Shown here: positions 16,232 through 31,967 of the stretch, piece by piece
Numbering within the stretch: position 1 is the first letter of the stretch
Layout: the number at the start of each line of letters is the position of its first letter
DNA from: Rhizomicrobium sp.
Lineage (GTDB): Bacteria > Pseudomonadota > Alphaproteobacteria > Micropepsales > Micropepsaceae
DNA: 34,507 nucleotides
Assembly: GCA_025451875.1 (NCBI GenBank)
Contig: JANWJQ010000066.1
Span: 1-34,507, forward strand
Direction: 5' to 3'
Program-made: the position numbers and the translations under genes
The notes under the pieces: model-generated
Told to the model about the DNA's origin: nothing
Seen by the model: only the letters and a program-made list of their open reading frames with translations
The model's database searches: none

Positions 16232-16927
16232 ATGTCCGACCACACAACCAAGCCGCCTTCCATCGTGAGACCCGGCGCGGCGCTGAAAGCGTTGCGGCTC
16301 GAGCGCGGCTGGAGTCTGGCCGAAGTGAGCCGGCGCAGTGGTCTTCCCGTCTCGAGTCTTTCCAAGGTCGAAAACGACAAGATGGAGTTGACGCTCGATA
16401 AGCTCATGCGTGTCAGCGTCGCACTCGATGCGGATATGGCCGGTCTCTTCGCGGCGCCCAGTTCGCAATATGCGGGGAGCGATACCAATGGCCGCCGCGC
16501 CATCACAAGAAGCGACGATGCAAAAACGATCGACACGCATATCGGGCGGTATCGCTATCTGGCCTACGAACTTCTCAACAAGCACTCCATCCCCATGACC
16601 ATCGATGTGACAGCGAAGAGCCTGGAAGAATTCGGAGAATTCAATCGCCATCCGGGCGAAGAGTTTGTTTATGTTCTTGAGGGCGAGCTCGACCTTTACA
16701 CGGACATGTATCTGCCCACCAATCTCAAAAAGGGCGACTCGATCTATTTCGACAGCAGTATGGGCCATGCCTATATTGCGATCGGCGATAAGCCCTGCCG
16801 GATTCTTTCCATCTGCATCGCACCGGAATCCGAGCTCATCAAATTCATGGAAGGCAAAACCCAGCCCATCGGCAAACACTACAATCTGGCCGATGGTTCG
16901 GCCCCGAAAGCCAAGGCGGGAAAGTAA
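16232..16927 (+). CDS. XRE-family transcriptional regulator with C-terminal cupin domain
   Basis: The 231-residue protein joins an N-terminal helix-turn-helix of the XRE/Cro type (about residues 14-72, with ALKALRLERGWSLAEVSRRS and SSLSKVENDK) to a C-terminal cupin sensing domain. The cupin has HPGEEFVYVLEGELDLY at about 140-156 and a second motif around DSIYFDSSMGHAYIAIGD. Members of this group bind short palindromes near their own and neighbouring genes and respond to a small molecule held by the cupin. Position right after the aminotransferase suggests control of that gene and perhaps of the divergent peptidase operon. ATG 16232 has GGGGA 4 bases upstream. It is the last intact gene before the left decayed fragment. 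Confidence 0.92.
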   Translation: MSDHTTKPPSIVRPGAALKALRLERGWSLAEVSRRSGLPVSSLSKVENDKMELTLDKLMRVSVALDADMAGLFAAPSSQYAGSDTNGRRAITRSDDAKTIDTHIGRYRYLAYELLNKHSIPMTIDVTAKSLEEFGEFNRHPGEEFVYVLEGELDLYTDMYLPTNLKKGDSIYFDSSMGHAYIAIGDKPCRILSICIAPESELIKFMEGKTQPIGKHYNLADGSAPKAKAGK

Positions 16928-16944
16928 GCCGCTCGAAAGCCTTT

Positions 16945-17309
16945 TAACGCTAACATGCCGTTGAGCATGGAGAGGGCCTTGGCGCCCCACACCTGCAAGG
17001 CGTTCGCCAACGCCTCCGCATCGGACACAGTGCGGAAGGGAACGCCTTTCGCTTTCAACTGCTCGCGCAGCTCAGCGTGGTTGTAGACCTCGCCGTTAAG
17101 GACACCAGAAGCTTGCCGCCGAAGGATACCTGCGGCTGTAAGCCACCGTCCAAACCGATAACGCTCAGACGGCGCGTACCCACAGCGGGTATGAGCGCAT
17201 AGCGAACGACGAGATCGGTGATGTCGCCGCGATAGAAATTAGACTCGAGCGATCGCGGCACGATCTTCTCCGCACTATCCCAGTCGACCGCAACCGCGAT
17301 ACCGCGCAC
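16945..17309 (-). pseudogene. Frameshifted N-terminal fragment of a glutamine amidotransferase/asparagine synthase
   Basis: Reading the minus strand from about 17309, one frame gives a class II glutamine amidotransferase N-terminus: VRGIAVAVDWDSAEKIV, then FYRGDITD, then TRRLSVIGLDGG and QPQVSFGGKLLV. The frame is then lost near 17105 and homology continues in another frame as VLNGEVYNHAELREQLKAKG, VPFRTVSDAEALANALQVWG and LSMLNGM, stopping near 16945. The catalytic Cys expected right after the initiator Met is an Arg (GTG-CGC instead of ATG-TGC). The C-terminal synthetase domain is absent. The fragment is therefore dead three times over: start/Cys lost, frameshifted, truncated. Related intact genes occur in polysaccharide and exosortase loci. 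The first frame also stays open a little further upstream, to 17333. Confidence 0.82.
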
Positions 17310-17527: not shown

Positions 17528-17779
17528 ATGAACGAGTCCGTAGATGACATTCGAACCATCGTGACCTCCACGCTGCGCGCGTTGCTGCCGGCGCCGGTCG
17601 AACTTTCCGACAACACCAACATCATGCGCGACCTCGGCCTGGACTCGGTATCAGTGATGGATTTTGTGATGGAAACCGAGGAGTGCTTGGACATTTCCGT
17701 TCCGCTTGATCGGATTTCGGAAGTCGAAACGATCGGCGACCTCGTAACGATGCTGCACGATCTAAAAGGCGGGGATTGA
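17528..17779 (+). CDS. Acyl carrier protein
   Basis: This 83-residue protein is a stand-alone acyl carrier protein. Ser 40 in DLGLDSVSVMDFV is the attachment site for 4'-phosphopantetheine, and the four-helix pattern and length fit the family. The start at ATG 17528 gives the usual short acidic N-terminus; only a weak AACGG precedes it. The gene ends 3 bases before the serine palmitoyltransferase start. In sphingolipid-making alphaproteobacteria such as Caulobacter a dedicated acyl carrier protein gene next to spt is known, and it is thought to supply the acyl chain to the synthase. The same role is inferred here from position. It is unlikely to be the housekeeping fatty-acid AcpP, which normally sits between fabG and fabF. 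Confidence 0.93.
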   Translation: MNESVDDIRTIVTSTLRALLPAPVELSDNTNIMRDLGLDSVSVMDFVMETEECLDISVPLDRISEVETIGDLVTMLHDLKGGD

Positions 17780-17782
17780 GCG

Positions 17783-19042
17783 ATGTCATTGTTCGACAAG
17801 TTCGAGCCGCTGAATGCACAATACGTTCGGCTGGAAGCGATCGACGCCAATCCATTTGCTATCACTTTCGACCACGTGTTGTCACCCACAGAAGCGATGA
17901 TCGGAGACAGTCGCATTCTGCTGCTCGGCACCAATAACTATCTTGGTCTTACCTACGATACCGAGATTGTCACGAAGGCAGTGCAGGCGACGCGAGCGTT
18001 CGGAACTGGCACCACAGGATCGCGCATAGCCAACGGTAGCTACGACGGCCACAAGAAGCTCGAACGCGCACTGAAAGATTTCTACGGTCGCAAGCACGCA
18101 ATGGTTTTCTCAACCGGCTATCAGGCCAATCTGGGAATTATCTCAACGCTCGCCGGAAAGAACGATCACCTGCTTCTCGATGCAGATTCCCACGCAAGCA
18201 TTTACGATGGCTCGCGGCTCGGCCATGCGCAGGTCACCCGTTTTCGTCACAACGATCCTAACGATCTGCACAAGCGACTGCGCCGTTTGGCCGATGTTCC
18301 AGGCGACAAGATCGTCGTCGTCGAAGGCATCTATTCGATGCTGGGAGACACTGCTCCGTTGCGTGAATTTGCGGAGGTGAAGCGTGAATGGGGCGCCTAT
18401 CTCATCGTCGATGAGGCCCACTCGCTGGGCGTGCTTGGCGAAACGGGTCGCGGCCTCGCCGAAATGCAGAATGTCGAGCCCGACGTGGATTTTGTTGTCG
18501 GCACCTTTTCAAAGAGCCTCGGCAGCGTGGGCGGCTTCTGCGTCAGCAATCTGGATGATTTCGACATCCTACGTGTCGCGTGTCGGCCCTACATGTTTAC
18601 CGCGTCGCTGCCCCCCGGCGTGATCGCGGCGACGATGGAGGCGCTACATCAGTTACGCGCGCGGCCCGAATTACGGCTCCGTTTGATCGAAAATGCGAGG
18701 CGGCTTTATGCCGGTCTGACTGGGTTGGGTTTTTGTCTTGGTCCGGAGCCGAGTCCTGTCGTATCTGCCATCATGCCAAACCCCGAAACCGCTTTTGCCC
18801 TATGGTCCGATCTTTTGAAGGCCGGCCTCTACACCAATGTGAGCTTGCCGCCAGCGACGCCCAATGGCTTGGCGCTGTTGCGTTCGAGTGTCAGTGCCGC
18901 GCACACTCCGCAGCAGATCGATCACGCCATCGCGCTGTTCGAACAGACAGGCCGCGCATTAGGGATGGTCCCCGCATCCGCGGCCACGCATGCTTCACAC
19001 CACGCAGCTGCGTCTCCGTCATTAAGCGTAACGTCGGCGTGA
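17783..19042 (+). CDS. spt: Serine palmitoyltransferase
   Basis: The 419-residue protein belongs to the alpha-oxoamine synthase family of PLP enzymes. It matches in pattern the soluble serine palmitoyltransferase of Sphingomonas, which condenses L-serine with a long acyl thioester to give 3-oxosphinganine, the first step of sphingolipid synthesis. Visible features are SRIANGSYDGH near 80-90, STGYQANLGIISTLAGK at 110-126, the PLP-stacking His 137 in DADSHASIYDG, Asp 210 and His 213 in VDEAHSLG, the PLP Lys 244 in GTFSKSLGSVGGF, and the FTASLPPGV and PPATPNG segments. Related family members (KBL, BioF, HemA) differ in these segments. It is cytoplasmic. The acyl carrier protein gene lies immediately upstream. 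No ceramide synthase or ceramide reductase gene is seen in the window, so the pathway needs genes elsewhere. Confidence 0.9.
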   Translation: MSLFDKFEPLNAQYVRLEAIDANPFAITFDHVLSPTEAMIGDSRILLLGTNNYLGLTYDTEIVTKAVQATRAFGTGTTGSRIANGSYDGHKKLERALKDFYGRKHAMVFSTGYQANLGIISTLAGKNDHLLLDADSHASIYDGSRLGHAQVTRFRHNDPNDLHKRLRRLADVPGDKIVVVEGIYSMLGDTAPLREFAEVKREWGAYLIVDEAHSLGVLGETGRGLAEMQNVEPDVDFVVGTFSKSLGSVGGFCVSNLDDFDILRVACRPYMFTASLPPGVIAATMEALHQLRARPELRLRLIENARRLYAGLTGLGFCLGPEPSPVVSAIMPNPETAFALWSDLLKAGLYTNVSLPPATPNGLALLRSSVSAAHTPQQIDHAIALFEQTGRALGMVPASAATHASHHAAASPSLSVTSA

Positions 19043-19231
19043 CGTTTTGCGCCACAGCTGCCACAATTGGACTGTGGGATCAGATAGCTGTCTGCGATAG
19101 GGTGAAATTGCCGGTTGCCGGGGCCGGCAGACATCTTTAGCCTCGGTCCGTCGGCAATCCACGCCATCCAAAGATTCTGATCTATTGATTGCGGTTTCTT
19201 GGCCGAATAGCTTGGCACGCCTACGCACCCC

Positions 19232-20506
19232 GTGAGCGCATATCCTTTGAAAATTCTTTTCGCTTTCGAGAATTCTCTGCCGAGCACCGAGGCGGATGCC
19301 GAAGTCTTCGTAACGACGGCACGATACCTTGCATCTGCGCTTGAGAAGGCATGGTTTCACGTTCCGACTTCGCGCCTTGCAGACCGCAGCGCTCTTGCCA
19401 CGCTGACCGGTATGCCCGTGATTCACGCCATCGCGCCGGCGCGACCTGCGGCTCTGAGACATCTTCTTTGCGGGTTGACACTGATATTTCGCGAGCAATT
19501 CCGCAACGCCGATCTTGTCTACACCAGAAACCTATGGATCGCATGGATAGCGGTGAAATTCGGGCGGCGCGTGGTATTCGATCACTACCGTCCATGGCCT
19601 GATCAAATTCCACCCTTGCAATTTTGGATTTATCGACTGATGTGCAATCGGCGGTTTCTGATCAATATCTGTCATTCCGAATACACCCGCCGAAAATACC
19701 TGGCGCTCGGGATTCCACCGGGCAAGCTGGTCTGCGTTCACAATGGCTTTGAACCGCAGCGTTTCAAAATTCCGCTTTCATTGGAGAATGCGAAACAGGC
19801 GATCGGCATCTCGTCCGCGACAAAAACCGTTGTCTATACTGGGCGCATCAATCACAAGAAGGGATTGAACCTGGTACTAGAGGCAGCGAAAGGGCTGCCG
19901 GATATCCTTTTCCTACTGGTTGGTTCCTATGGTGATGGACCTATCGAGGTGATGGCCAAGGATATTCCCAATGTCCGCGTTATACCCTGGCAGCCGGAGG
20001 ATGCAGTCAGTCGGTATGTGTTCGCCGCAGACGTTTTGCTGATACCTCCATCGTCGCAGCCTCTGGCCAAGTTCGGCTCAACAGTCTTGCCGCTGAAGCT
20101 GTTTTCCTACATGGGTTCGGGGCGCGCCATCCTTGCGGGTGATACACCGGATGTGCGCGAAATTCTAAAGCACGAAGTGAACGCCTTCCTTTGCCGCCCC
20201 GATAGCCTGGAGTCTCTGATAACCGGAATTAGAGCACTGACGGATGACATCGACTTGGCGGAACGCATCGCCGCGCAAGCACTTGTGCAAAGCCGCGACT
20301 TTACGTGGGACGCACGCGCGCGAACGATTGCCCGCATTATTGAGAGCCGCCTTCGCTCCGCGCCGGAGCAAGACGGCACATGGAGCCGCGCGCAGTTCCT
20401 CAACTGGTTGCACCAGTCGCGACGCTGGCTGATGCATCTTGTTCGGCGCCGATCATGGGTGCTCCCCCCAACGCCACCGTCCACCGCAGGTGCGCCGCGC
20501 GCGTGA
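19232..20506 (+). CDS. GT4-type glycosyltransferase
   Basis: The 424-residue protein has the two-Rossmann GT-B shape of glycosyltransferase family 4. The N-terminal half has LKILFAFENSLPS and the acceptor-side segments. The C-terminal donor-binding half has VVYTGRINHKKGLNLVLEA, LVGSYGDGP, VRVIPWQPEDA and LPLKLFSYMGSGRAI, the last replacing the common E-x7-E donor motif with a variant. GTG 19232 is taken as the start because it gives a proper first beta strand. It follows the serine palmitoyltransferase gene by 189 bases and precedes the flippase gene by 4 bases, so it is probably in the same transcription unit. It would transfer a sugar from a nucleotide sugar on the cytoplasmic face of the membrane; donor and acceptor are unknown. 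Confidence 0.88.
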   Translation: MSAYPLKILFAFENSLPSTEADAEVFVTTARYLASALEKAWFHVPTSRLADRSALATLTGMPVIHAIAPARPAALRHLLCGLTLIFREQFRNADLVYTRNLWIAWIAVKFGRRVVFDHYRPWPDQIPPLQFWIYRLMCNRRFLINICHSEYTRRKYLALGIPPGKLVCVHNGFEPQRFKIPLSLENAKQAIGISSATKTVVYTGRINHKKGLNLVLEAAKGLPDILFLLVGSYGDGPIEVMAKDIPNVRVIPWQPEDAVSRYVFAADVLLIPPSSQPLAKFGSTVLPLKLFSYMGSGRAILAGDTPDVREILKHEVNAFLCRPDSLESLITGIRALTDDIDLAERIAAQALVQSRDFTWDARARTIARIIESRLRSAPEQDGTWSRAQFLNWLHQSRRWLMHLVRRRSWVLPPTPPSTAGAPRA

Positions 20507-20510
20507 CGAT

Positions 20511-21953
20511 ATGGACAGCCACCGTCAACATTTGAGTCGCGGATTCAACTGGCTTGGTGGCGCGACTATCATTGCCAAGACCATCGACTTTTCGACGATC
20601 CTCCTCGTGCTGCTGTTTCTCACCAAGGAACAGGTAGGTGTCGCGTCTCTGGTCGTCTCGATTGGCATGATTATCGAGGCATTCGATGGATTGGGCACCG
20701 CCGATGCGCTGGTGCAGGCGCCGTCGATCTCCCGTCTTCAGCTCGATACACTCTTCTGGTTTATCGTCGGCGCGGCGCTGGTCGTCGCTGCTCTTACGCT
20801 GCTTATGGCGCCGTGGATTGCGGCGATTTATGGGACCGCGGGAATGGCGGCATATTTCCTGGCTATCGCAGCCAAGCAACCCCTCGTCGCCGCTGCGGTG
20901 ATTCCACTGGCGGTCATGAACCGGAACCTGCAGTTCGAGCGCATCGCCGTGGTCAATGTCTGCGCGACCTTCGGCGCCGCAATGACGCGGCTGGGCCTGG
21001 CGGTTGCTGGTGCAGGCGCGTGGGCGCTGGTTGCCGGATACACAGCGAGCGGGCTTTTCCTGCTGCTCGGTGCCTCGCTGGCCAGCCCTTTCAAACCGAC
21101 ACTGCGATTTCAAATGCCGGCGATTACGGCGCTGGTGCGTTTCGGAATCCGGGCCGGCACCTCCAATATCATTGAACAAGTGTTCAAGAACATCGACTAT
21201 CTATTGATCGGCTGGTTTTACGGCCCGGCGCCGCTTGCGATCTATCGTGTAGCCTTCGACGTTGCAATGGAACCCGCCATGGCGATCGGCACACTTGTCA
21301 ATCGAACCGCGTTGCCTGTGTTTGCAAAGATAGCGGCGATGAAGGAGCAACTTTCGCAGGCTCTCATCTGGTCGGTAGGCCGGATTGCGACGCTGGTGGC
21401 GCCGCTGATGGTGGCACTAATTCTTATCGCGAATCCACTCATGGCGCTGCTTCATGATCGCCAAGGCCACAGTTACGCGGCAGCGGCATTGCCCCTTAAA
21501 TTGCTCGCGGGCGCCGCATTGCTACGCGTAGCCTCGCAGATTCTTTATCCATTAATGATGGGCACCGGCCGTCCAGGATCTGCAGCCCGGCTATCGGCGG
21601 CAACGTTGGTGCTTCTCACTGCCGGCATCGTGGCGGCCGGATTCAGCTTTCCGGAGGAAACAGGCATAGTGGCCGTCTCCGCGGTCTGGCTTGGCGTCTA
21701 TCCGTTGCTCATCATCTGGGGCATGCGCCATCTGCGGATTCACTGGGACATTCGGGCCGCAAATTTCTTGCAAGTCTTCGTTGCGCCGGCCCTTGGCGTT
21801 TGCGCATTGGCCGGAATCGTCGAAACCGGCCGTCTGTTCATTGCAAACGGCGACTTGACGATTCAAGTCGGCCTCGTTCTGGCGGCGACGGCGCTAACTT
21901 ATGCCGGACTTATCCTACATGCCCGTTACCACCCATCTACACCGGCGATGTGA
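20511..21953 (+). CDS. Oligosaccharide/lipid flippase of the Wzx (MVF/MATE-like) family
   Basis: The 480-residue protein is almost entirely membrane: about twelve to fourteen hydrophobic helices with short loops. It opens with SRGFNWLGGATIIAKTIDF and contains FGIRAGTSNIIEQVFKNIDYLLIGWFYGP, a segment pattern typical of polysaccharide flippases of the Wzx/RfbX type. Such proteins move lipid-linked saccharides from the inner to the outer leaflet of the cytoplasmic membrane. ATG 20511 is chosen because it starts 4 bases after the glycosyltransferase stop. Its 3' end overlaps the convergent radical SAM gene by 17 bases. In this context it may flip a glycosylated sphingolipid or a separate exopolysaccharide unit. 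Confidence 0.88.
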   Translation: MDSHRQHLSRGFNWLGGATIIAKTIDFSTILLVLLFLTKEQVGVASLVVSIGMIIEAFDGLGTADALVQAPSISRLQLDTLFWFIVGAALVVAALTLLMAPWIAAIYGTAGMAAYFLAIAAKQPLVAAAVIPLAVMNRNLQFERIAVVNVCATFGAAMTRLGLAVAGAGAWALVAGYTASGLFLLLGASLASPFKPTLRFQMPAITALVRFGIRAGTSNIIEQVFKNIDYLLIGWFYGPAPLAIYRVAFDVAMEPAMAIGTLVNRTALPVFAKIAAMKEQLSQALIWSVGRIATLVAPLMVALILIANPLMALLHDRQGHSYAAAALPLKLLAGAALLRVASQILYPLMMGTGRPGSAARLSAATLVLLTAGIVAAGFSFPEETGIVAVSAVWLGVYPLLIIWGMRHLRIHWDIRAANFLQVFVAPALGVCALAGIVETGRLFIANGDLTIQVGLVLAATALTYAGLILHARYHPSTPAM

Positions 21954-22968
21954 CGTCTCCCGGCGCGATACCCGCGGCAGCAACCGGATCTGGAATTGTC
22001 TGCGCACCGCGATGGCGATCAAACATGCTCATTTGATGAACACAACTCAAGGTGCAAGACGGGCTGCACGTTTTCTCTGTGTTGAATTCGCGGCGGATAT
22101 CGTCGCTTGTATATTCGAGTAATGGAATTCCCGGATAGCCGCGCTGCTGCGAACACCAGTGCACCTTGCCATCCTCGCAAATATACAGATAGCGCGCACC
22201 TGCCCTGCACTTCCAGTCGTTGGTCTGGCCGTGCATCAAATTTTTCTGAAACAGCCAGTAATTCAGGCTATGCACCATAGACGGCGAAATCTTCGTGACC
22301 TGGGTGTAGGCATCCATCTGTGCAGGACTGAGAGGTTTCAACGTGCCGGTGCCGTCGTGCAAGACACCAACAGAATGCTGCAGACCGTATTTTGCCGCGG
22401 TCTCTGCGACTGTCACGACTTCCTGCGTTCGCTCTCCGCTAACGCCAAGGACAGAATTGACGTTGACCTTGAATTTGGCGTGCTGCGAAAGCAATCCCAG
22501 CTTTCGCTCCACGGATGAGAGACTCTTCATCGACACTTCATCGGGCTTGAGATTGTCGATGCTGATCTGCATACCCTGCAAATCCGCCGCGTTGAGCCGA
22601 TCGATCCATGCTCGCGTCAAGCGAAAGCCATTGGTGATCATCGTCACAATCATGCCGTGATTGCGAGCTGCACGGACGAGCTTATCGAGATCTGGATGTA
22701 GAAGCGGTTCGCCGCCAGTGAAGGTGATCGATGCGGTTTTTAGCGCGGCAAGATGATCAATGCGCGCGAGCAAAACATCCAGTGGAACGGGTGGGGAAAA
22801 ATCGTCGTATTCGTTGCAGTACCCGCAACTCAGGTTGCAACGCCGGGTGACGACGATTTGGGCCAGAAGCGGATTGTACCGCGAACTGACTGCACGGGCG
22901 AGAAACCGTGCTCCGGAACTCAGTCCTCCGAGCCGGCGAGAAGCGGGTGTGATGTTGGTAACTGTCAT
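21937..22968 (-). CDS. Radical SAM protein with cysteine-rich (SPASM-like) C-terminus
   Basis: The 343-residue protein carries the radical SAM iron-sulfur motif as CNLSCGYC (Cys 44, 48, 51), the SAM-binding TGGEP at 85-89, and a TNGFRL segment. The C-terminal third has at least seven further cysteines, including CRAGARYLYICEDGKVHWC and CSPSCTLSC, resembling an auxiliary cluster-binding SPASM or twitch domain. The first domain looks like the group that includes HpnH and peptide-modifying enzymes. Its substrate is unknown, and no precursor peptide was seen nearby. It is the last gene of a minus-strand unit after the glycosyltransferase and PIG-L genes, 82 bases below the latter, so a role in modifying the same sugar or lipid is plausible. 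ATG 22968 has only a weak ribosome site. Confidence 0.88.
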   Translation of the reverse strand: MTVTNITPASRRLGGLSSGARFLARAVSSRYNPLLAQIVVTRRCNLSCGYCNEYDDFSPPVPLDVLLARIDHLAALKTASITFTGGEPLLHPDLDKLVRAARNHGMIVTMITNGFRLTRAWIDRLNAADLQGMQISIDNLKPDEVSMKSLSSVERKLGLLSQHAKFKVNVNSVLGVSGERTQEVVTVAETAAKYGLQHSVGVLHDGTGTLKPLSPAQMDAYTQVTKISPSMVHSLNYWLFQKNLMHGQTNDWKCRAGARYLYICEDGKVHWCSQQRGYPGIPLLEYTSDDIRREFNTEKTCSPSCTLSCVHQMSMFDRHRGAQTIPDPVAAAGIAPGDVTSPV

Positions 22969-23050
22969 TCGGCCACTCTGAAAAGCTTATGCGGTCTCGC
23001 AAAACTAGGTCAGTTGATAGCATTCCGGCGCATCAAACATAGTTACGGAA

Positions 23051-23860
23051 TCACAACACGGGCAGCCTTCTGCGCGCGCCGCGCCATGACGGTGGCCACC
23101 ATCTGAGACCCGCGACGTCCAGAAGCCATTCCCCGGACAGAGGCAGCCGGGGCTGTAGATCTGCGCCGGAAGGCTGGGCGTAGAGCGTCTCTTCGGCGGG
23201 CCAGCGATGGACACGAGTCCAGGTCCAAGCACCGTTGCGCCTGTACACCCGCATCAGAGCGCGTGCAGTAACGAGGTCGGGCTGGACCGCGCGGCGTTGC
23301 GTCCAACTGGGTTGGCTGGCGGTCAGTTGTGCCAAAGGCCAACTCGCGGCACCGACATAGTTGGTGAACCAGACCGTATATCCGATTTCGGCCTGCAACG
23401 CAGCAACCGCGCGATAGACTTGGATGTGGTCGGCGTGACCATACTCACCCCAGGGGTTATGCGTGTAGACCACATCACATCCAGTTAGAGCAGTTCGCAG
23501 CGCTTCGACCAGCGAGCGGTAGTTGTCTTCGTAACGGGCGCAAGCCGCAGGATCCGTGATCGCGATGCCGAAAGGTGTGGGCTGCGGCCGCGCCCAGTCC
23601 ACCAAAAATCTCGCACCACTTTCAGGCAAGGCGAGATTGAGCAGACCCCGCAAAGGGAGAGCGGCAACGGCCCGCCTTCGCGCAGCGGCTTTTTTTGATT
23701 TCCCGAACGGATCGCCGAAACAGAACACAATACGATCCGACGACGCCACGACCGAGCTGAACCAGAGGCTCTCATCGTCGGGATGCGCCACGACCAGCGC
23801 AGTTCGCGGCGATGCGGACGCTATGTCATCGCTATTCTGCACCCGACAAAACCTCGTCAT
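23051..23860 (-). CDS. PIG-L/LmbE-family N-acetylglucosamine deacetylase
   Basis: The 269-residue protein is a zinc-dependent deacetylase of the PIG-L family. The metal and catalytic motif AHPDDE lies at residues 25-30, and the third-ligand motif is HADH (142-145) in GEYGHADHIQV. Known members remove the acetyl group from N-acetylglucosamine attached to inositol or lipid: PIG-L in GPI anchors, MshB in mycothiol, BshB in bacillithiol. ATG 23860 gives 29 bases of overlap with the upstream GT4 gene, a strong sign of coupling; GGAGG lies somewhat far upstream, so a slightly different start is possible. Pairing with a GT4 enzyme repeats the transferase-plus-deacetylase logic of those pathways. The presence of inositol-phosphate synthase in the same block makes a GlcN-inositol unit an attractive guess. 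Confidence 0.9.
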   Translation of the reverse strand: MTRFCRVQNSDDIASASPRTALVVAHPDDESLWFSSVVASSDRIVFCFGDPFGKSKKAAARRRAVAALPLRGLLNLALPESGARFLVDWARPQPTPFGIAITDPAACARYEDNYRSLVEALRTALTGCDVVYTHNPWGEYGHADHIQVYRAVAALQAEIGYTVWFTNYVGAASWPLAQLTASQPSWTQRRAVQPDLVTARALMRVYRRNGAWTWTRVHRWPAEETLYAQPSGADLQPRLPLSGEWLLDVAGLRWWPPSWRGARRRLPVL

Positions 23861-24965
23861 AGAAGTTTTCGAGAACCTCCGTTTGCGTCCGGATGTCAAA
23901 CCGCTGCTCGACAAGCGCACGCGCCTGCCTGCCCATGCGAAGACGCATGGCCGGATCGCTCAAAAGATCATCGATCCGCCGGGCCAATGCCTCAACGTCG
24001 CGTTCGGGTACCAGAAAGCCCGTACGGTCATCAAGAACGCCTTCCGGTATGCCGCCGATGCGCGAAGCAACGACCGGCACTCCTGTGGCCGCAGCTTCCA
24101 GCAAAACCATACCCAAGCCTTCGACGCGTCCCGTGGTTGTTCGAACACTCGGCAGAACCAGCATTGCCGCCCGGCGCATATGCGCCAACACTTCGCCGTG
24201 GGCTTGCGCACCCAAAAAACGCACGCGCGGCCCCAACCCCAGAGACCTTGCGAGCTTTTGAAGGGTACGTTTACGCGGTCCATCACCAATGATGACCAGC
24301 TGAACATCCGCATATCTCAACGCAAGAGCCGCGAATGCCCGGATAAGGTATTTCGTGCCTTTGACGTCCGCCAACCGCGCAACATGCAGGATCGTCCGCG
24401 TTTCCTCTGAGGGATCGCGCGGCGTAATCGCACGCCAATCCACGCCGATATAGTGCGTCCGCGTACGTGCTTCCGGAAAACCCAATGCCAATATACGATC
24501 GCGAATGAATGACGAAGCGCAAAGGAATAAGGCTCCTTCTTGCGCAAGATTGCGCCTATACAGCGGATAATTCATCCAGGCAGGCGAAGACAGTAGTGCT
24601 GCTGTCGATAGCGTCGCATCGAAGCCATGAAACGTCGTCACCAACGGAATATGTAGCCGCTTCGCTAGTGGAAGCGCGTACACGCCCTCAATGCCGAAAT
24701 GGGCATGAATGATCGCGGGGTGGCGGCCCCGGAGCAGATTCTGGTAGGGCTCCGGGTTGCGCGACAGCATCTGTCGCCCGATGCGCAGATACGCTCTTGG
24801 CCCGCCATCGAACAATGCTTGGGACACAGCACCCTTCGGCGACTCACCATAGCGCATCCGCCCCAGATAGAGCGGCTTGTAGCGGCGCAGGTTTTGCGCC
24901 TGCTGAACGATGAAGGGTTCGGATATTCTGAACAGATTATGACGGAATATTATAATCTCGCGCAC
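23832..24965 (-). CDS. GT4-family glycosyltransferase
   Basis: The 377-residue protein is a clear GT-B, family 4 glycosyltransferase. Its N-terminal domain has AIIHAHFGIEGVYALPLAK and VTTFHGFDATLS. The C-terminal domain has ILHVARLADVKGTKYLIRA, LVIIGDGP, VRFLGAQAHGEVLAHM and the EGLGMVLLEAAATGVPVVAS donor motif with the E-x7-E spacing. The start is GTG 24965. It is the first gene of the minus-strand unit glycosyltransferase, PIG-L deacetylase, radical SAM, and overlaps the deacetylase start by 29 bases. By analogy with MshA/MshB it could add GlcNAc to an inositol-containing acceptor that the deacetylase then trims. That is inference; family 4 covers many donors and acceptors. Confidence 0.92.
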   Translation of the reverse strand: MREIIIFRHNLFRISEPFIVQQAQNLRRYKPLYLGRMRYGESPKGAVSQALFDGGPRAYLRIGRQMLSRNPEPYQNLLRGRHPAIIHAHFGIEGVYALPLAKRLHIPLVTTFHGFDATLSTAALLSSPAWMNYPLYRRNLAQEGALFLCASSFIRDRILALGFPEARTRTHYIGVDWRAITPRDPSEETRTILHVARLADVKGTKYLIRAFAALALRYADVQLVIIGDGPRKRTLQKLARSLGLGPRVRFLGAQAHGEVLAHMRRAAMLVLPSVRTTTGRVEGLGMVLLEAAATGVPVVASRIGGIPEGVLDDRTGFLVPERDVEALARRIDDLLSDPAMRLRMGRQARALVEQRFDIRTQTEVLENFYDEVLSGAE

Positions 24966-25047
24966 GCCGTGGCCACCCGCAGAATTTGCTTAATCTCGTC
25001 GCATCGCCGTCTATATCGATGCGAAGCGAATAGTATCCGGAAGCAAT

Positions 25048-25530
25048 ATGCGAAAATCGATGAAATCTCTGATGTCGGCTATCCTGCTGTCACTTCTCTC
25101 CGCCTGGCAACCGGTGCGGGCAGATACACTCATGTCTTGCAACGAGGCGGACCCCGCCCAGGTCCGCTTGCAGGTCAGCGTCAGCGACATGCGCTCGAGT
25201 GACGGTAACATTACAATCACGATCTATCCTGACGACCCGCCTCACTTCTTAGATGGAAAATATAAGCTCGCCCGGCAAATCGTACCGGTAAAGTCGCCGG
25301 TGACGCGCGTCTGTTTCGCAGTTGCAGCGCCCGGCTTCTACGCTGTGGCTCTTTTTCACGACGAAAACAATAACCACCACCTGGACACCACGCTGCTGGG
25401 AATACCGTCGGAGGGGTACGGCTTCTCCCAAAACCCGAAGCTCTTTCTGGGGCCGCCCAAATTCAGCCAGGTTCGTGTTGCCGCCCACCCAGGCGACAAT
25501 CCGGTCGCCATCCAGATGAAGTATTATTGA
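25048..25530 (+). CDS. DUF2141 family secreted protein
   Basis: The 160-residue protein has a signal peptide (residues about 1-25, ending PVRA) and a DUF2141-type domain with the diagnostic FHDENNNHHLD, then LGIPSEGYGFSQNP. This family of small exported beta-rich proteins is common in sphingomonads and other Gram-negatives; its function is unknown. GGAAG precedes ATG 25048 at good spacing. It is divergent from the minus-strand glycosyltransferase unit and 207 bases upstream of lptF on the same strand. The acidic HDEN motif could bind calcium, but nothing in the sequence proves it. Confidence 0.88.
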   Translation: MRKSMKSLMSAILLSLLSAWQPVRADTLMSCNEADPAQVRLQVSVSDMRSSDGNITITIYPDDPPHFLDGKYKLARQIVPVKSPVTRVCFAVAAPGFYAVALFHDENNNHHLDTTLLGIPSEGYGFSQNPKLFLGPPKFSQVRVAAHPGDNPVAIQMKYY

Positions 25531-25737
25531 TTTTCTGTAACATTTTCGACCAATACATTGGGATTTGGTAATGTTTCCGGTTCATCGAGGAGAGAAACAC
25601 GGTCAGGTTCGGTGGTAGTTTCGCTTGAATAGAGCGCCCAAGACGGGCCCCTTGGATCAGCGTAGGCTCTGTCGAAGCATCAGCTGACAATTTAAAACGA
25701 CTTCGCTCATTTTCCAAAAAGCCGGACGGCGCGCGCC
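25531..25737. other. Intergenic region upstream of lptF, no recognised feature
   Basis: The 207 bases between the DUF2141 gene and lptF are AT-rich at the left end and show no promoter match that I would defend. A short minus-strand open frame covers part of it but resembles nothing known. The region may still hold a promoter for lptFG. Confidence 0.4.
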
Positions 25738-26874
25738 TTGATCATAAACCGCTATTTGATCCGCGAGATCAGCAAGCCACTGGCGACCACACTTGTTGTC
25801 CTCGTGACCCTCTTCGCGAGCTACAGCACCGCCGAATTTCTGTCAGATGCCGTCAACGGACTGCTGCCGACGAATACCATCGGAGAGATGATCGGCCTTA
25901 AGGCATTGATCTCTCTAGAGGTGCTGATACCGGTTTCTCTTTATATTTCGATCCTTCTGTCGTTTGGAAGGCTGTACAGCGACTCCGAATTTACGGCGAT
26001 GTTCGCACTGCGCGTAACCCCACTCAGAGTCATGGGGTCGGTTCTTACATTGTCGGGCGCTTTGGCTGTTGTCGTGGCCTTGTTATCGCTGTTTGTGCGG
26101 CCTTGGGCGTACGAAAAACTGCATACGCTTTCAAAACGGGCGGAAGCTTTCGCCAATGTCGATAACATGGAAGCCGGCACGTTCTATATTGGCGAAGATG
26201 GAGGCCGGGTTATATTTTTGAACCATCGCGACGGCCCGAAATCTGCGGCCAGCGATGTATTCGTGCAGTTGAGCTACCCCAATCGAATGCGAATTCTCTC
26301 CGCACGACATGCATACCAGCTACCGCGAACCAACGATGGCGGCAGTTCGGATATCTATTTGAGCGATGCCCATATTTACGATATCGGGCGGGAAAAAGAT
26401 CAAACTGACAGTGTGATAGATGCACAGGGGATCATCTTGAGGCCGCCGGACCCGAGTCTCGAACAACCCGGATACAGTTCCGTCAGTGCAGGCACAGAAA
26501 TGCTCGCGATTTCTGGCGGACTTCAAGACATCGCCGAGTTGCAATGGCGGCTGTCTACTTCGCTTTCGACAATTCTACTTGCCATGCTCGCTGTACCGTT
26601 GAGCCGCATGAGGCCTCGACAAAACCGATATGCGAAGATGGGAACCGCGGGTCTGATCTATTCTGGCTACTATCTGTTGTTCACGTCGGCGCGCACATGG
26701 GTTCAGCAAGGGACGGTGGCGCCGCTCCCCGGCATCTGGTGGGTTCCGGCGTCGCTTGCGGCGGTCGTAGCCATCGTCTGGGTTCAACCAAATCTGGGCT
26801 TTGAATTGAGGCGGCTGCGCGTGCGCTTCAACACATGGCACGCGCAATGGTTGGGCGGCCGTGACGCGGCTTGA
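25738..26874 (+). CDS. lptF: LptF-like inner-membrane permease of the lipid exporter
   Basis: The 378-residue protein is a YjgP/YjgQ-family permease. It starts MIINRYLIREISKPL, has three hydrophobic helices in the first 130 residues, a periplasmic beta-jellyroll-like domain (about 140-265) and three C-terminal helices. Typical late LptF sequence is present: PLSRMRPRQNRYAKMG, then TSARTWVQQGTVAPLPGIWWVP. In LPS export LptF and LptG form the transmembrane part of the LptB2FG ABC transporter and pass lipid to LptC. The start is TTG 25738, which gives the normal N-terminus, with a weak ribosome site. It overlaps lptG by 14 bases. No lptD, lptA, lptB or lptC gene is seen beside it, and the pair sits inside a sphingolipid-type block, which raises the possibility of a specialised second copy. 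Confidence 0.88.
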   Translation: MIINRYLIREISKPLATTLVVLVTLFASYSTAEFLSDAVNGLLPTNTIGEMIGLKALISLEVLIPVSLYISILLSFGRLYSDSEFTAMFALRVTPLRVMGSVLTLSGALAVVVALLSLFVRPWAYEKLHTLSKRAEAFANVDNMEAGTFYIGEDGGRVIFLNHRDGPKSAASDVFVQLSYPNRMRILSARHAYQLPRTNDGGSSDIYLSDAHIYDIGREKDQTDSVIDAQGIILRPPDPSLEQPGYSSVSAGTEMLAISGGLQDIAELQWRLSTSLSTILLAMLAVPLSRMRPRQNRYAKMGTAGLIYSGYYLLFTSARTWVQQGTVAPLPGIWWVPASLAAVVAIVWVQPNLGFELRRLRVRFNTWHAQWLGGRDAA

Positions 26875-27952
26875 CCGTTACATCGCGGCCGCGGCACTCC
26901 GCGGCGTCCTGTTGGTCGCCACGGCGTTGACCTTGCTGTTCAGCCTGCTGGAATTTGTCGAACAGCTCAGTTCGGTTGGTCAAGGCCACTACCGACTGAT
27001 CGACGACCTTTTCTATGTCCTGCTCACGATTCCGTCACGCCTGCTCCAGGTGATGCCCGTGTCGATGCTGATAGGCTCCCTGCTCTCCTTGGGCACGCTC
27101 GCCGATGCCTCAGAGCTTACAGCGCTGCAATCGCTCGGCATGTCGGAACGCCGCATCATAGGTTCGGTGCTCGCGCTTGCGTGCCCGATCGTCATCACTC
27201 TGTTTCTGATAGCGCAGTTTGCGATCCCACCAACGCAACAATTCGCTGAAAGTCTGCGAGCATCGAAGTTATCGCCGTCCGCGTCGGTTCGCAGCACAGA
27301 CACTTTTTGGAGTCAGGGCAATCGCCAATATCTCAACGTGCAGCGCTTTGAACATGGCAATATTCCGAGAAACATCAATATCTATGCTTTCTCAGCGGAC
27401 GGGCGTCTGACCAGCGCGATTCGCGCAAAACGCGCTGACATTCGGTCGGACGGGACATGGCTTCTCTTCGACGTGGTGCGTAAGCGCGTTCAGTCCTCAC
27501 AATTCCAGACCGACTATCTGACTTCGCTTATCTGGCACTCTTTTTTGCCCCCCAAAAACGTCCAACAACTGCTTATGCCGCCCGACACCATGGCGCCCGT
27601 CGAATTATATCTTTACATCCGTGATCTCAGCCGCAGGCACCAGCAAGCTACGCGGTACGAGGCGGAATTGTGGACCAAGATCGGCATTCCGTTTTCGATC
27701 ATGGCCATGATCCTAATAGCGGCGCCGTTTGTGTTCGGTGCAATGCGTGCGCATGGCACTGGTCAGCGCATCGTCATTGGCGCCGGCTTCGGAATTGTGT
27801 TTTCTCTGGTCCAGCAAATTGCGGGCCGTTTAGAGTTGCTGCTAAACTTGAATCCGGCAGTGATCGCGTTGACGCCTTCTTTTGCGGTCATGGCGTTAGC
27901 AATCCACCTTTTTCAGCGGATGCATAGGCCCGGCAGGGAACTGGTCACTTAA
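26861..27952 (+). CDS. lptG: LptG-like inner-membrane permease of the lipid exporter
   Basis: The 363-residue protein is the partner permease. It begins MTRLDRYIAAAALRG at GTG 26861, inside the last codons of lptF. The first half has three membrane helices with IPSRLLQVMPVSMLIGSLLSLG and the ELTALQSLGMS coupling segment. A periplasmic beta domain with YLNVQRFEHG and NINIYAFSADGRL follows, then three helices preceded by YEAELWTKIGIPFSIMAMIL and APFVFGAMR. These are standard LptG features. It would pair with LptF to extract a lipid from the inner membrane. Its 3' end overlaps the convergent CDP-alcohol phosphotransferase gene by 8 bases. Confidence 0.9.
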   Translation: MTRLDRYIAAAALRGVLLVATALTLLFSLLEFVEQLSSVGQGHYRLIDDLFYVLLTIPSRLLQVMPVSMLIGSLLSLGTLADASELTALQSLGMSERRIIGSVLALACPIVITLFLIAQFAIPPTQQFAESLRASKLSPSASVRSTDTFWSQGNRQYLNVQRFEHGNIPRNINIYAFSADGRLTSAIRAKRADIRSDGTWLLFDVVRKRVQSSQFQTDYLTSLIWHSFLPPKNVQQLLMPPDTMAPVELYLYIRDLSRRHQQATRYEAELWTKIGIPFSIMAMILIAAPFVFGAMRAHGTGQRIVIGAGFGIVFSLVQQIAGRLELLLNLNPAVIALTPSFAVMALAIHLFQRMHRPGRELVT

Positions 27953-28868
27953 CGGGCTCCATCTCTTGGATAAACTGCGCGTAGCGCGCGGACTGACGAG
28001 GGAGAAGAACAGCCAGAATTGCGCTAAAGCCAAAAATCTCGAACAGAAAGTAATATTGAGGCACTGACAGCGCCGCGCCGATGAATATCCCAATGGTGCG
28101 ATAATTGGCGGATAGAATGGACCATCGCCGAATGGCCGGTGCGAATGTCTCGCGATAGCGCTCCCGGATGGAAGCCGCCTGTTCCGGGTTCATTTTCAGG
28201 AGATTGGCCATCTTTTCGTCGAAGCCGGCAGGTATGCCGACCACCATCAACTGGACGCCGACATATAGCCGGTTGAGCATATGCATGATGCGCGTGGTAA
28301 AGGAGGCCTTGGCTTCATTTGGCGGTGGCCTGTTGAGTGCCAAAAGTGCCGCCGATTTCCGATCCATACCCCAATACTCATATTCCTGCCTTTGCACCTC
28401 ATAGGCGGCCGCCTGAACGGCGTGGCAGATCCCAGCGGAAACGGCGAGTATCCATATCCACCCTCCGAATTGAGCGCTAAGCGCAAGTGCCAGAGCAGAG
28501 TAGACGGCGATAAACGTCGTATAATCGCAAATCCCGTCGATTACTTTCCCAAATTCGGATTGCGAATTCGTGAGGCGGGCAAGCTGACCGTCCGTGCCAT
28601 CCATGATGTGCCATAAAATCATCAGCACAAAGCCGGCAATCGCCCATTTCACGTCTTGATAGTGGTAGTAGGAAATCGCCGCCAATATACCAAACGTCAT
28701 TCCCGCGAAGGAAACGGCATTGGGAGATACATGCAGGCTCGCCAACACTGGTGTCAGACGGTTCGAGATCGGATGAATGAAATAGAGATTGGTTATCTCT
28801 TCGATATCCGACGTGCGCCGGATGGGCTCACGGGGCTTCCCCTCTCCCCCACGAGACGAACCTGTCAA
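27945..28868 (-). CDS. CDP-alcohol phosphotransferase, candidate phosphoinositol transferase
   Basis: The 307-residue membrane protein carries the complete CDP-alcohol phosphotransferase motif between residues 90 and 115: Asp 90, Asp 93-Gly, Ala-Arg 97-98, Gly 107, Asp 111 and Asp 115, in the right spacing (MDGTDGQLARLTNS, then FGKVIDGICD). Several hydrophobic helices follow. The N-terminus has FIHPISNRLTPVLASLHVSPN, a segment typical of the family. Members move a phospho-alcohol from a CDP-activated donor to an acceptor alcohol. The gene starts with TTG 28868, overlapping the cytidylyltransferase stop in TTGA, and is third in an operon after inositol-phosphate synthase. This favours phosphoinositol transfer. 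The acceptor could be ceramide, diacylglycerol or inositol phosphate; ceramide is inferred from the neighbouring sphingolipid genes. Confidence 0.9.
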   Translation of the reverse strand: MTGSSRGGEGKPREPIRRTSDIEEITNLYFIHPISNRLTPVLASLHVSPNAVSFAGMTFGILAAISYYHYQDVKWAIAGFVLMILWHIMDGTDGQLARLTNSQSEFGKVIDGICDYTTFIAVYSALALALSAQFGGWIWILAVSAGICHAVQAAAYEVQRQEYEYWGMDRKSAALLALNRPPPNEAKASFTTRIMHMLNRLYVGVQLMVVGIPAGFDEKMANLLKMNPEQAASIRERYRETFAPAIRRWSILSANYRTIGIFIGAALSVPQYYFLFEIFGFSAILAVLLPRQSARYAQFIQEMEPVK

Positions 28869-29581
28869 AGCATACCTGTTTCAAGCAGGTTCTCAGCCTT
28901 TCCGAACGCCGCGGGATCGTCAACATCGATCCAGACCCGGTCCTGAATATCGAACGCACGCGCCTTGTTCCGGCGCGCGAGCACGTTCATCGCGCCCGAG
29001 ATACTATCATCTCCGTTCGCCTGGCTTTCTTCGAGCGCGTCGAATATGGCGGGAGTGCAAAGAAAAAGGCCCGTATCCAGTGCGTTGAAGTCCCGGATGA
29101 CTTTGCCAATATGATGGATGGAGCCGCCTGAACATTTGACGCGCGTGACGTCCTCCAGATCGTTGAGCGGTCTGTCGATATTGAAATCGACCCCCAGCGT
29201 GACGGTATCCGGCTCGACAGGCACGGACATCAGGCTACGAAATATTTCCGGATCGAGCAAATGATCGCACATGGTGAGCAGAAAGGGCTCGTTCAGATAT
29301 GGCTTCGCTTTGAGCACCGAGATTCCGTTCGCACGATCCCAGCTTTCATTGACGATGTGTTCGATGCGAAGGTTTTCCCGCGCCGAAAACGCGTCTAATT
29401 CCATGCGAAGTTCATCACCCCTGTAACCACTGACAACCCAGAATTCATCGACGCCGCCACTACGGGCCCGGTCGATCACGCGCTCAATCAACGGAATTCC
29501 CTTAATTTCGATCAAAGGCTTGAGCTGGCCTTTTTCTCTCAGCCTGACGCCTTGCCCTGCGGCAACGATAAGGCACTTCAC
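28865..29581 (-). CDS. Nucleotidyltransferase, inositol-1-phosphate cytidylyltransferase-like
   Basis: The 238-residue protein is a sugar-phosphate nucleotidyltransferase-fold enzyme. The nucleotide-binding loop is LIVAAGQGVRLREKG with Lys 21 in LKPLIEIKG. A metal-binding Asp 106 lies in LTMCDHLLD, RANGISVLKAKPYL sits at about 83-96, and WIDVDDPAAF is near the C-terminus. These segments look most like the inositol-1-phosphate cytidylyltransferase domain of thermophile di-inositol-phosphate enzymes, which makes CDP-inositol from CTP and inositol-1-phosphate. Choline- or glycerol-phosphate cytidylyltransferase-like activity is the main alternative. It starts with GTG 29581 overlapping the inositol-phosphate synthase stop by 4 bases, and its stop overlaps the CDP-alcohol phosphotransferase start by 4 bases. 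This order matches the domain order of the fused archaeal enzyme. Confidence 0.85.
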   Translation of the reverse strand: MKCLIVAAGQGVRLREKGQLKPLIEIKGIPLIERVIDRARSGGVDEFWVVSGYRGDELRMELDAFSARENLRIEHIVNESWDRANGISVLKAKPYLNEPFLLTMCDHLLDPEIFRSLMSVPVEPDTVTLGVDFNIDRPLNDLEDVTRVKCSGGSIHHIGKVIRDFNALDTGLFLCTPAIFDALEESQANGDDSISGAMNVLARRNKARAFDIQDRVWIDVDDPAAFGKAENLLETGML

Positions 29582-30708
29582 AGAGCGGCCAACATTTTCT
29601 TGGTATGCGTTCGGATAAATGCCTCGATCATGTCGTAGGCGACGTCGTCCGAATATTGCTTAGCCGGGTGTTTACAAAAATACGCGCTGGGCGCCTCAAG
29701 TACGCCGCCAACACCGCTTTGAAGCGCCAGTTTGCAGCACCGGATCATGTCGATGACGACGCCGGCCGAATTGGGCGAGTCCTCCACCGACAGCCGCAAC
29801 TCCAGATCCATCGGGACGTCCCCGAACAAATGTCCTTCCATCCTCAGAAAACAAATCTTGTTGTCATTTTGCCATGGCACATAGTCGCTGGGGCCCACAT
29901 GGATGTTTTCGTCCTCGATACGGGTCTTCGCGACGGACTGCACGGCTTCGGTTTTGGATGTTTTTTTGGACACCAGCCGAGTCTGGTTCTTCATGTTGAG
30001 GAAGTCGGTATTGCCACCAGTGTTCAATTGGTATGTCCGCAACAACTTCACCCCACGCTTCGCGAACAGGTCTGTCAAAACACGATGTGTAATTGTGGCG
30101 CCAAATTGGGATTTTATGTCGTCTCCAACGATCGGCAGATTGCGTGCTTTGAACCGATCAGCGAAACTTTTGTCACTGGCGATGAACACCGGCATGTTGT
30201 TAATGAAGGCGACGCCGGCTTCTAACGCACATTCGGCGTAGAAGCGCGCGGCTTTTTCCGACCCCACGGGAACATAATTGAGCAGAATTTCGGCGCCGCT
30301 ATTTTTCAGCTCGCGAACAATTTCCGCCTTCGTCAATTCCGTTACACCGGAGCGGACGAACGTCCTGTCTTCCGCATAGTCCGCCATGTGTTCGGAAATG
30401 CCATCAAGTACCGGCCCCATGCGCACGACCACGCCACTCGGGGGGATATCTCTTTGAAAAATCTTTGTGCAGTTTGGTTTGGAAAAAATCGCCTGACTTA
30501 CGTCCATGCCGACCTTGCGGGCATCGACATCGAATGCCGCAACGACTTCGATGTCACACGGAAGATAACCGCCGATTTCCGCATGCATCAAGCCAGTAAC
30601 CCCCTGGCGACAACGCTCGGCGGTATAATAGTGAATGCCTTGGACGAGAGAACTGGCGCAGTTTCCCACCCCCGCGATCGCGATCCGGATGCTACCCTTC
30701 TTTGTCAT
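29578..30708 (-). CDS. ino1: myo-Inositol-1(3)-phosphate synthase
   Basis: The 376-residue protein is a prokaryotic-type inositol-3-phosphate synthase, which converts glucose-6-phosphate to inositol phosphate using bound NAD. It shows the NAD-binding AIAGVGNCASSLVQG near residues 10-24, DIEVVAAFDVDARKVG, NYVPVGSEKA, FINNMPVFIASD, then GDDIKSQFGATITHRVL, RTYQLNTGGNTDFLNM and, near the end, SPNSAGVVIDMIRCCKLAL. All are standard for the family, and the length is typical of actinobacterial and archaeal members. ATG 30708 has AAAGG 9 bases upstream. It is the first gene of a three-gene minus-strand operon with 4-base overlaps at both junctions. The enzyme is uncommon in proteobacteria; its presence points to an inositol lipid or inositol-linked sugar product. 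Confidence 0.93.
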   Translation of the reverse strand: MTKKGSIRIAIAGVGNCASSLVQGIHYYTAERCRQGVTGLMHAEIGGYLPCDIEVVAAFDVDARKVGMDVSQAIFSKPNCTKIFQRDIPPSGVVVRMGPVLDGISEHMADYAEDRTFVRSGVTELTKAEIVRELKNSGAEILLNYVPVGSEKAARFYAECALEAGVAFINNMPVFIASDKSFADRFKARNLPIVGDDIKSQFGATITHRVLTDLFAKRGVKLLRTYQLNTGGNTDFLNMKNQTRLVSKKTSKTEAVQSVAKTRIEDENIHVGPSDYVPWQNDNKICFLRMEGHLFGDVPMDLELRLSVEDSPNSAGVVIDMIRCCKLALQSGVGGVLEAPSAYFCKHPAKQYSDDVAYDMIEAFIRTHTKKMLAAL

Positions 30709-31001
30709 GATGTACCTTTGTGAACCTCAACCCTGAGCCCAAGGTAGCCCAAACCAATCTTAAGTTCATAGTGGGTGTCGCTTTGTTGTTTTTTCCCAAT
30801 CTTCGGATGCGGCCGGAATTCGGGTGCCGGTCATGTGGGTATAGTTAAGGAAAGCAAGGATCTGCTATGGGCCGCGCGCTGAACCGGGAAGTTTACCTGT
30901 TCTAGATTACAATCCCAAATGGCGGCACCATTAGCGGGTTGTGAGCCGGAAGAGGGATCTTTGCGCCTTCACTTGCAAACCCGTCGCAGGTCGAAACGGG
31001 G
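30709..31001. other. Intergenic region upstream of the inositol operon
   Basis: The 293 bases between the GT32 gene end and the inositol-phosphate synthase start are AT-rich and contain no recognised gene. They must hold the promoter of the inositol operon unless it is read through from the GT32 gene. I found only poorly spaced -35/-10-like pairs and do not assign one. Confidence 0.4.
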
Positions 31002-31967
31002 CTAAGTGGCGTCCGGCAAGTGACAAATACAGGAACAGACGAGCGCGCTATACAATTGATGGTTTCGATGCTCTCGCACATAGTCTGGAGCGATCAACGC
31101 GACGCGGGATTTTGTCCGGACCGACGCATACCAATGTACAATGCGGGTTTCCGCCAATAAGACCTCATTTAATCGTACATCCCGGCCAATCCGGAACCAA
31201 TGCTCCGAAATTTCTGGCGGCAAAGGATAAAACGCATCCGGCCCGTAAACGGTTAAATCTCGTCCGCGATACCGATCGACGACCTCTTGCAACAAGTCGG
31301 GACCGAGACCATAGGCCTGCTCCTGGCGTTCAGGCGCCATGGCAATCATAGCCTGGAGATAGTCGGAGAAAAAAGGCGCACGTGCTTGCGCGCCCATTAC
31401 AGCATTGTTGACGCCGCAAAAATAGAATTTCTCGATCCGCCGGAACCACTTCCATCCGTTTGGCAAATGCCTCAACGCCCTGCGGGCAACATCAAGAGCA
31501 AGATGCCGCGCCCACACCACGGGAGAAGTCGATACACGCACAGAATGGGGCCACACAATAAATTCAGACCCAATGAATTGCCTGTTATCGAGCAAAGACT
31601 TCAGAGAAGCGACCGTGATAGTGTCCATATCCAAGTACACCCCTCCCTGCATGTAGAGAATTGCCGCCCGCAGAATATCCGCCCGCGCCACCGGACTATC
31701 CAGGCGACGGTAAAGCGCCACCAATTCCCCGTCGAAGCCCAGCACACGCTCTGTCTTGGCCAAATATGTGGGGGCATCGAGTCGAGAGAGCCGCACGCGC
31801 GGCGAGTTCCTGAGCGCGCGCAGTTCAGCGCCATCTTCAAGCACATCTGTATGGTGAAGAATGATTTCCGGCAGCTCACTATGCTCAGCCGCAGATAGAA
31901 TGGCGAACACGTAGGCCCAAGATAGCCTGCTGCCGATCCAGCAGAAATGCACACAAGCGGGAATCAT
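31002..31967 (-). CDS. GT32-family glycosyltransferase (DXD sugar-binding region)
   Basis: The 321-residue protein is a GT-A fold glycosyltransferase of family 32. IPACVHFCWIG is the usual first strand. ARADILRAAILYMQGGVYLDMDT contains the DXD metal/nucleotide-sugar motif at residues 113-115, and NNAVMGAQARAPFF is the conserved downstream segment. Bacterial members add sugars to polysaccharides and lipid-linked glycans. In yeast the GT32 proteins Sur1 and Csh1 mannosylate inositol phosphorylceramide, which is notable given the inositol and sphingolipid genes next door, but specificity cannot be read from this sequence. ATG 31967 has only a weak ribosome site. It lies upstream of the inositol operon on the same strand, 293 bases away. 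Confidence 0.87.
   Translation of the reverse strand: MIPACVHFCWIGSRLSWAYVFAILSAAEHSELPEIILHHTDVLEDGAELRALRNSPRVRLSRLDAPTYLAKTERVLGFDGELVALYRRLDSPVARADILRAAILYMQGGVYLDMDTITVASLKSLLDNRQFIGSEFIVWPHSVRVSTSPVVWARHLALDVARRALRHLPNGWKWFRRIEKFYFCGVNNAVMGAQARAPFFSDYLQAMIAMAPERQEQAYGLGPDLLQEVVDRYRGRDLTVYGPDAFYPLPPEISEHWFRIGRDVRLNEVLLAETRIVHWYASVRTKSRVALIAPDYVREHRNHQLYSALVCSCICHLPDAT

Follow-up and report, generated by a model that had tools for sequence, protein, structure and literature searches.

The stretch from 17.5 to 32 kb of the window (the whole 34,507-nucleotide piece of Rhizomicrobium sp. DNA analysed here, which is an entire contig) probably, though far from certainly, encodes a single pathway for a glycosylated inositol-phosphoceramide, in which the glycosyltransferase GT4_A attaches GlcNAc to the inositol head, this sugar being deacetylated in the next step. 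By analogy with known lipids, the product is best read as a zwitterionic glycosyl-inositol-phosphoceramide of the fungal type, and the gene content suggests that the bacteria carrying the cluster probably make glucosamine-decorated inositol sphingolipids like the fungal ones. A preliminary description of this DNA was confined to 23051-24965, which is the right span for the GT4_A/PIG-L gene pair but omits the remainder of the cluster (17528-31967); the genes for serine palmitoyltransferase (SPT), acyl carrier protein (ACP), LptF/LptG, flippase, cytidylyltransferase and CDP-alcohol phosphotransferase were overlooked. The features of the cluster are listed in Table 1.

Table 1. Genes of the proposed inositol sphingolipid cluster in the window
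Feature	Position	Strand	Evidence and remarks
Acyl carrier protein, adjoins SPT	17528..17779	+	Pfam PP-binding 2.3e-11; position kept in orthologous loci
Serine palmitoyltransferase (SPT)	17783..19042	+	NCBIfam NF047599 670.7 bits, cut-off 500
GT_B, GT4-like glycosyltransferase	19232..20506	+	Pfam Glycos_transf_1 1.8e-15; conserved in cluster, absent in G017
MOP-family flippase	20511..21953	+	Pfam Polysacc_synt_3 1.1e-50; conserved
Radical SAM protein, Cys-rich C-terminus	21937..22968	-	Pfam Radical_SAM 2.4e-20
PIG-L/LmbE-type de-N-acetylase	23051..23860	-	Pfam PIG-L 4.1e-09; HxDD + H motif; LmbE-like model
GT4_A glycosyltransferase	23832..24965	-	377 aa; Pfam Glycos_transf_1 4.6e-44; proposed GlcNAc adder
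DUF2141 protein	25048..25530	+	Pfam 1.1e-29; N-terminal signal-like stretch; conserved in part of loci
LptF homologue	25738..26874	+	NCBIfam TIGR04407 263.8 bits
LptG homologue	26861..27952	+	NCBIfam TIGR04408 326.3 bits
CDP-alcohol phosphotransferase	27945..28868	-	Pfam CDP-OH_P_transf 4.8e-15; proposed inositol-phosphoceramide synthase using CDP-inositol
CTP:inositol-phosphate cytidylyltransferase-like protein	28865..29581	-	Best solved relative 2xme, E 6.7e-18
myo-Inositol-phosphate synthase (MIPS)	29578..30708	-	Pfam Inos-1-P_synth 3.3e-35
GT-A glycosyltransferase (DXD GT, PF04488)	31002..31967	-	Pfam 2.2e-10; DXD conserved; GT-A fold model

On the minus strand, the PIG-L gene lies downstream of the GT4_A gene. 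Its longest reading frame begins with a GTG at 23920; the ATG at 23860, which has GGAGG upstream, yields a protein of 269 aa, and with this start the two genes share bases 23832-23860, exactly the 29-base overlap originally described. Overlap was also seen in 17/17 orthologous pairs measured (4-32 bases, a value that varies with the start codon chosen). Because of this, and because the metal-site residues H26, D28, D29 and H145 of the PIG-L protein are invariant among 18 aligned orthologues, the arrangement is not a chance one. Further, the protein belongs to the LmbE/PIG-L deacetylase superfamily by Pfam, metal site and fold alike. The PIG-L domain scores 37.4 bits, above the Pfam cut-off of 28.2, and the spacing between metal ligands 2 and 3 is about 115 residues, within the 97-148 residues that separate them in the HxD1D2 + H site of LmbE-type enzymes (PMC4101496). 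When the predicted structure (pLDDT 90) was used in a fold search, the best 21 rows were all LmbE-type deacetylases or their relatives, MshB and BshB included (Z 11.4-14.7), and the first unrelated row after this group had a Z of 8.1. As an MshB, the protein scored 23.7 bits with NCBIfam TIGR03445, for which the cut-off is 224. The nearest solved relatives of GT4_A are BshA-type chains, followed by PimB and MshA. GT4_A stays under every NCBIfam equivalog cut-off (MshA, 106 bits versus 462; BshA, 127 versus 274), and its sequence therefore does not fix the donor and acceptor.

A scan of named genomes for PIG-L homologues gave 80 loci, 15 with at least 49% identity and 65 below 43%. In each of the 15 closer loci, GT4_A is encoded directly upstream of PIG-L, together with further cluster genes as far as the contig reaches; the hosts are Acidocella aromatica, A. 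aminolytica, three Nitrospirillum amazonense strains, Elstera, Rhodovastum and other MAGs. With the genomes G030, G280 and G389 and the window itself, this makes 19 cluster loci, which are related by descent, so that their number is not a count of independent events. Within the genus of the window the PIG-L gene is rare (2/37 genomes, the window's own counted). The 19 cluster PIG-L proteins form one clade in a tree (support 100/100), and none of the 65 distant loci contained other cluster genes at the cut-offs used. MIPS, 74-86% identical among cluster-bearing genomes, is present in every orthologue genome checked: for the five loci that seemed to lack it, at contig ends or stretch limits, it was located elsewhere in the genome, as one full gene in each of four cases (74-85% identity) and, in the genome of L052, as a piece with 75% identity where a contig breaks off. 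Homologues of the deacetylase lying mostly outside inositol loci would have counted against the preliminary description; the true orthologues, however, share the same cluster, and it is the distant homologues alone that sit elsewhere. Its view that the pair is of the MshA-MshB, BshA-BshB and PIG-A/PIG-L kind and is tied to inositol genes is supported, and the inositol-phosphate synthase that it placed 4.6 kb away begins 4,613 bases past the GT4 gene.

Those distant PIG-L homologues with annotated context adjoin exopolysaccharide (EPS) genes, and EPS families such as EpsE are among those that GT4_A matches, as might be expected if the target of the pair were some polysaccharide or oligosaccharide unconnected with the lipid genes beside it. 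We consider this very unlikely, because the monophyletic PIG-L clade is linked exclusively to the sphingolipid/inositol cluster across 19 loci and because the cluster has no recognisable gene for a polymerase or a chain-length regulator. Plasmid-borne PIG-L homologues (35-36% identity) were discarded as a guide to function, as they belong to EPS-type loci and to a different clade.

In the window, one operon runs MIPS, cytidylyltransferase, CDP-alcohol phosphotransferase, its first two genes sharing 4 bases; the gene for the DXD GT lies next to that for MIPS. The best solved match of the cytidylyltransferase, 2xme, is a CTP:inositol-1-phosphate cytidylyltransferase; Caulobacter has CpgD, which makes CDP-glycerate for another sphingolipid head (PMC13228409). 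Against the bifunctional NCBIfam model the window protein does not reach the cut-off. The CDP-alcohol phosphotransferase is no more than weakly related to any characterised enzyme; the motif D-x2-D-G-x2-A-R-x8-G-x3-D-x3-D is found in the window protein and in 12 of its 13 orthologues, the remaining one being a 74-residue fragment. The combination of MshA- and MshB-related families with MIPS in one cluster might also be taken to indicate a mycothiol-like thiol, as raised in the preliminary description, formed from GlcNAc-inositol-phosphate via GlcN-inositol and cysteine ligation. This possibility was rejected as scarcely credible, given that MshC was found nowhere above cut-off in five genomes (drafts 82-100% complete) and that SPT, LptF/G, the flippase and the CDP-alcohol phosphotransferase would have no place in such a pathway. 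One sub-cut-off MshC match was present in each of the five genomes, and likewise in 14/14 control genomes; these matches are presumably cysteinyl-tRNA synthetase.

SPT carries out the first step of sphingoid base synthesis, and the genes for SPT and ACP occur in nearly all orthologous loci. Taken with LptF/LptG, the flippase, the cytidylyltransferase and the CDP-alcohol phosphotransferase, their presence makes it likely that the inositol is carried by a ceramide and by neither a glycerolipid nor a thiol. The inositol head group and the sphingolipid glucosamine that had been offered as alternatives probably belong to one and the same lipid. In G280, a contig running from SPT to PIG-L and a contig with MIPS and SPT could be joined via 127 identical bases, giving the order DXD GT, cytidylyltransferase, MIPS, a 377-residue protein, fatty acid hydroxylase, SPT, ACP, epimerase-type reductase, fatty acyl-AMP ligase, CDP-alcohol phosphotransferase, LptG/F, DUF2141, GT4_A, PIG-L, radical SAM protein and flippase. 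The ceramide genes of G280 are therefore located between inositol genes. The 377-residue protein gave no match in a family search; because of where it lies, and because a GNAT-like protein encoded in G030 resembles it, we guess that it may correspond to the bacterial ceramide synthase. CDP-alcohol phosphotransferases usually form glycerophospholipids, and the inositol might instead be placed on a glycerophospholipid, giving phosphatidylinositol (PI) and then a GPI-like GlcN-PI, with SPT a mere neighbour. Such a route would find a parallel in Prevotella, which is proposed to form PI-DAG from CDP-inositol first (PMC9246714). The near-constant company of SPT and ACP and the ceramide-type genes packed between the inositol genes of G280 nevertheless make this reading quite improbable.

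A natural variant of the cluster occurs in G017, a genome of the window's genus. Here, MIPS, cytidylyltransferase, CDP-alcohol phosphotransferase, LptF/G, ACP, SPT, DUF2141 and flippase are encoded on two contigs (L037 and L134) with a 55-base end in common. In contrast, PIG-L, GT_B and DXD GT were found nowhere in the G017 draft (82% complete, as is that of G000), the GT4_A orthologue is missing (best GT4 match, E 2.6e-17) and the radical SAM gene was not found in the two cluster contigs. The flippase gene adjoins DUF2141, at the spot expected for the GT4_A/PIG-L pair. This joint absence, together with the position of the flippase, points to a decoration module that is separate from the inositol-phosphoceramide core, and the G017-type variant may, judging from its genes, make plain inositol-phosphoceramide.

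The absence of all three glycosyltransferases together in G017 would also suit the same glycosylated inositol-phosphoceramide with an outer amino sugar, in which GT_B or the DXD GT supplies the first sugar and GT4_A adds HexNAc to that. Either of these enzymes could touch the inositol before GT4_A; the DXD GT is encoded beside MIPS in many loci, and in plant GIPCs GlcA precedes GlcN(Ac). We regard this order as unlikely, because no glycosyltransferase/modifier pair is as constant as GT4_A with PIG-L (19/19 loci), whereas in several loci, some of them on cut contigs, one or other of GT_B, flippase and DXD GT was not found. With GT4_A acting directly on the inositol, GT_B and the DXD GT would add later head-group sugars, and the acceptor of the DXD GT could be the inositol head group. 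A possible kinship of the DXD GT with the yeast IPC mannosyltransferases, which belong to the same Pfam family, PF04488, was also considered; by sequence, Och1 matches no more than weakly, and a fold search led to general GT-A enzymes.

The comparisons above show which genes are present and how far they are conserved, their catalytic motifs and folds, the exclusive linkage of the pair to the cluster, and the joint lack of the sugar module in one congener; every substrate, the order of the steps, the place of glucosamine (directly on the inositol) and export are inferred, as follows. SPT and ACP would begin ceramide synthesis, MIPS would form inositol-3-phosphate, and the cytidylyltransferase would convert this to CDP-inositol, from which the CDP-alcohol phosphotransferase would transfer inositol-phosphate onto ceramide to give inositol-phosphoceramide (IPC). 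At the cytoplasmic face, GT4_A would place GlcNAc on the inositol of IPC, and PIG-L would N-deacetylate it to glucosamine with a free amine, a sequence of steps shared with the synthesis of GPI, mycothiol and fungal GlcN-IPC. Following the addition of further sugars by GT_B and the DXD GT, the MOP flippase would turn the lipid over and the cluster LptF/LptG pair would carry it towards the outer membrane. G030, G280 and G017 each have another LptF/LptG pair besides that of the cluster; in the Caulobacter sphingolipid region, LptF2/LptG2 and a flippase have been proposed to carry phosphosphingolipids (PMC11324152).

Every part of the cluster has known relatives, and both inositol sphingolipids and glycosphingolipids have already been described in bacteria. 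In fungi, IPC is made from PI by an AUR1-type enzyme, and the window cluster differs in its proposed CDP-inositol route, unrelated enzymes and Lpt-type export. It is alike in the proposed order, IPC and then glucosamine on the inositol ring: according to PMC5872322, fungal GIPCs start with glucosamine or mannose added to the inositol of IPC, and an Aspergillus fumigatus N-acetylglucosaminyltransferase for zwitterionic GlcN-IPC is cited there (Engel 2015). The start of GPI synthesis (PIG-A complex, PIG-L) likewise uses a GT4 GlcNAc transferase and a PIG-L deacetylase on an inositol lipid, but in the window cluster no protein-anchoring or transamidase gene was recognised, the lipid is proposed to be ceramide and the sequence relation is not close. 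Mycothiol (MshA, MshB) and bacillithiol (BshA, BshB) synthesis share the pairing of a GT4 enzyme with an LmbE deacetylase and differ from the window cluster, which has lipid genes and in which MshC is not above cut-off. The Caulobacter ceramide diphosphoglycerate cluster (CC_1168-CC_1152; PMC11324152, PMC13228409) resembles that of the window in SPT, ceramide genes, cytidylyltransferase, CDP-alcohol enzyme, flippase and second LptF/LptG; its head group is glycerate, whereas inositol plus an amino sugar is proposed here. MIPS, an NTP transferase and a CDP-alcohol transferase also occur in the inositol sphingolipid genes of Bacteroidetes (BT_1522-1526 and an alternative Prevotella cluster). For Prevotella a CDP-inositol route is proposed, and the accessible portion of that source describes an HAD hydrolase and mentions neither decoration by a glycosyltransferase and PIG-L nor an Lpt pair (PMC9246714). 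The glycosphingolipids of sphingomonads and Caulobacter (Sgt1/Sgt2), some with glucosamine, are likewise sugar-bearing bacterial sphingolipids, but their first sugar, GlcA, is attached directly to ceramide, without phosphate or inositol (PMC13318209).

In the literature searched, which covered few subscription journals, neither a bacterial inositol-phosphoceramide decorated with an amino sugar nor such a bacterial cluster was found described, and searches for the polar lipids of the hosts and for bacterial glucosaminyl inositol lipids gave no direct account. GlcN-inositol lipids of the GPI and GIPC types are best known from eukaryotes. If our reading is correct, a central eukaryotic surface lipid would have been reached by convergence (or through older kinship) via enzymes of different origin, and a zwitterionic sphingolipid would be present in a bacterial outer membrane; Acidocella and Nitrospirillum would then offer culturable strains for studying sphingolipid flipping and Lpt-type export.

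The radical SAM protein is 76-83% identical in 9/18 other loci and is the best conserved of the accessory proteins. Its step would be accessory, because Acidocella-type loci lack just the radical SAM gene and DUF2141. A more detailed scheme, in which GlcN-inositol-phosphoceramide is made via CDP-inositol, flipped and passed to the dedicated Lpt pair, and the radical SAM protein alters the amino sugar or the inositol in some lineages, can be put forward only tentatively. The hopanoid enzymes HpnI/HpnK/HpnJ offer a comparison. An HpnJ-like role for the protein itself was rejected, since the family models were all below cut-off. In some of the clusters the DUF2141 gene keeps its place beside that for GT4_A or for SPT, and its product perhaps has a role in periplasmic lipid transport. 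At 16899-17200 on the minus strand, a short frame without a full gene encodes ...VLNGEVYNHAELREQLKAKG..., which by eye resembles an N-terminal piece of asparagine synthase and is probably a remnant.
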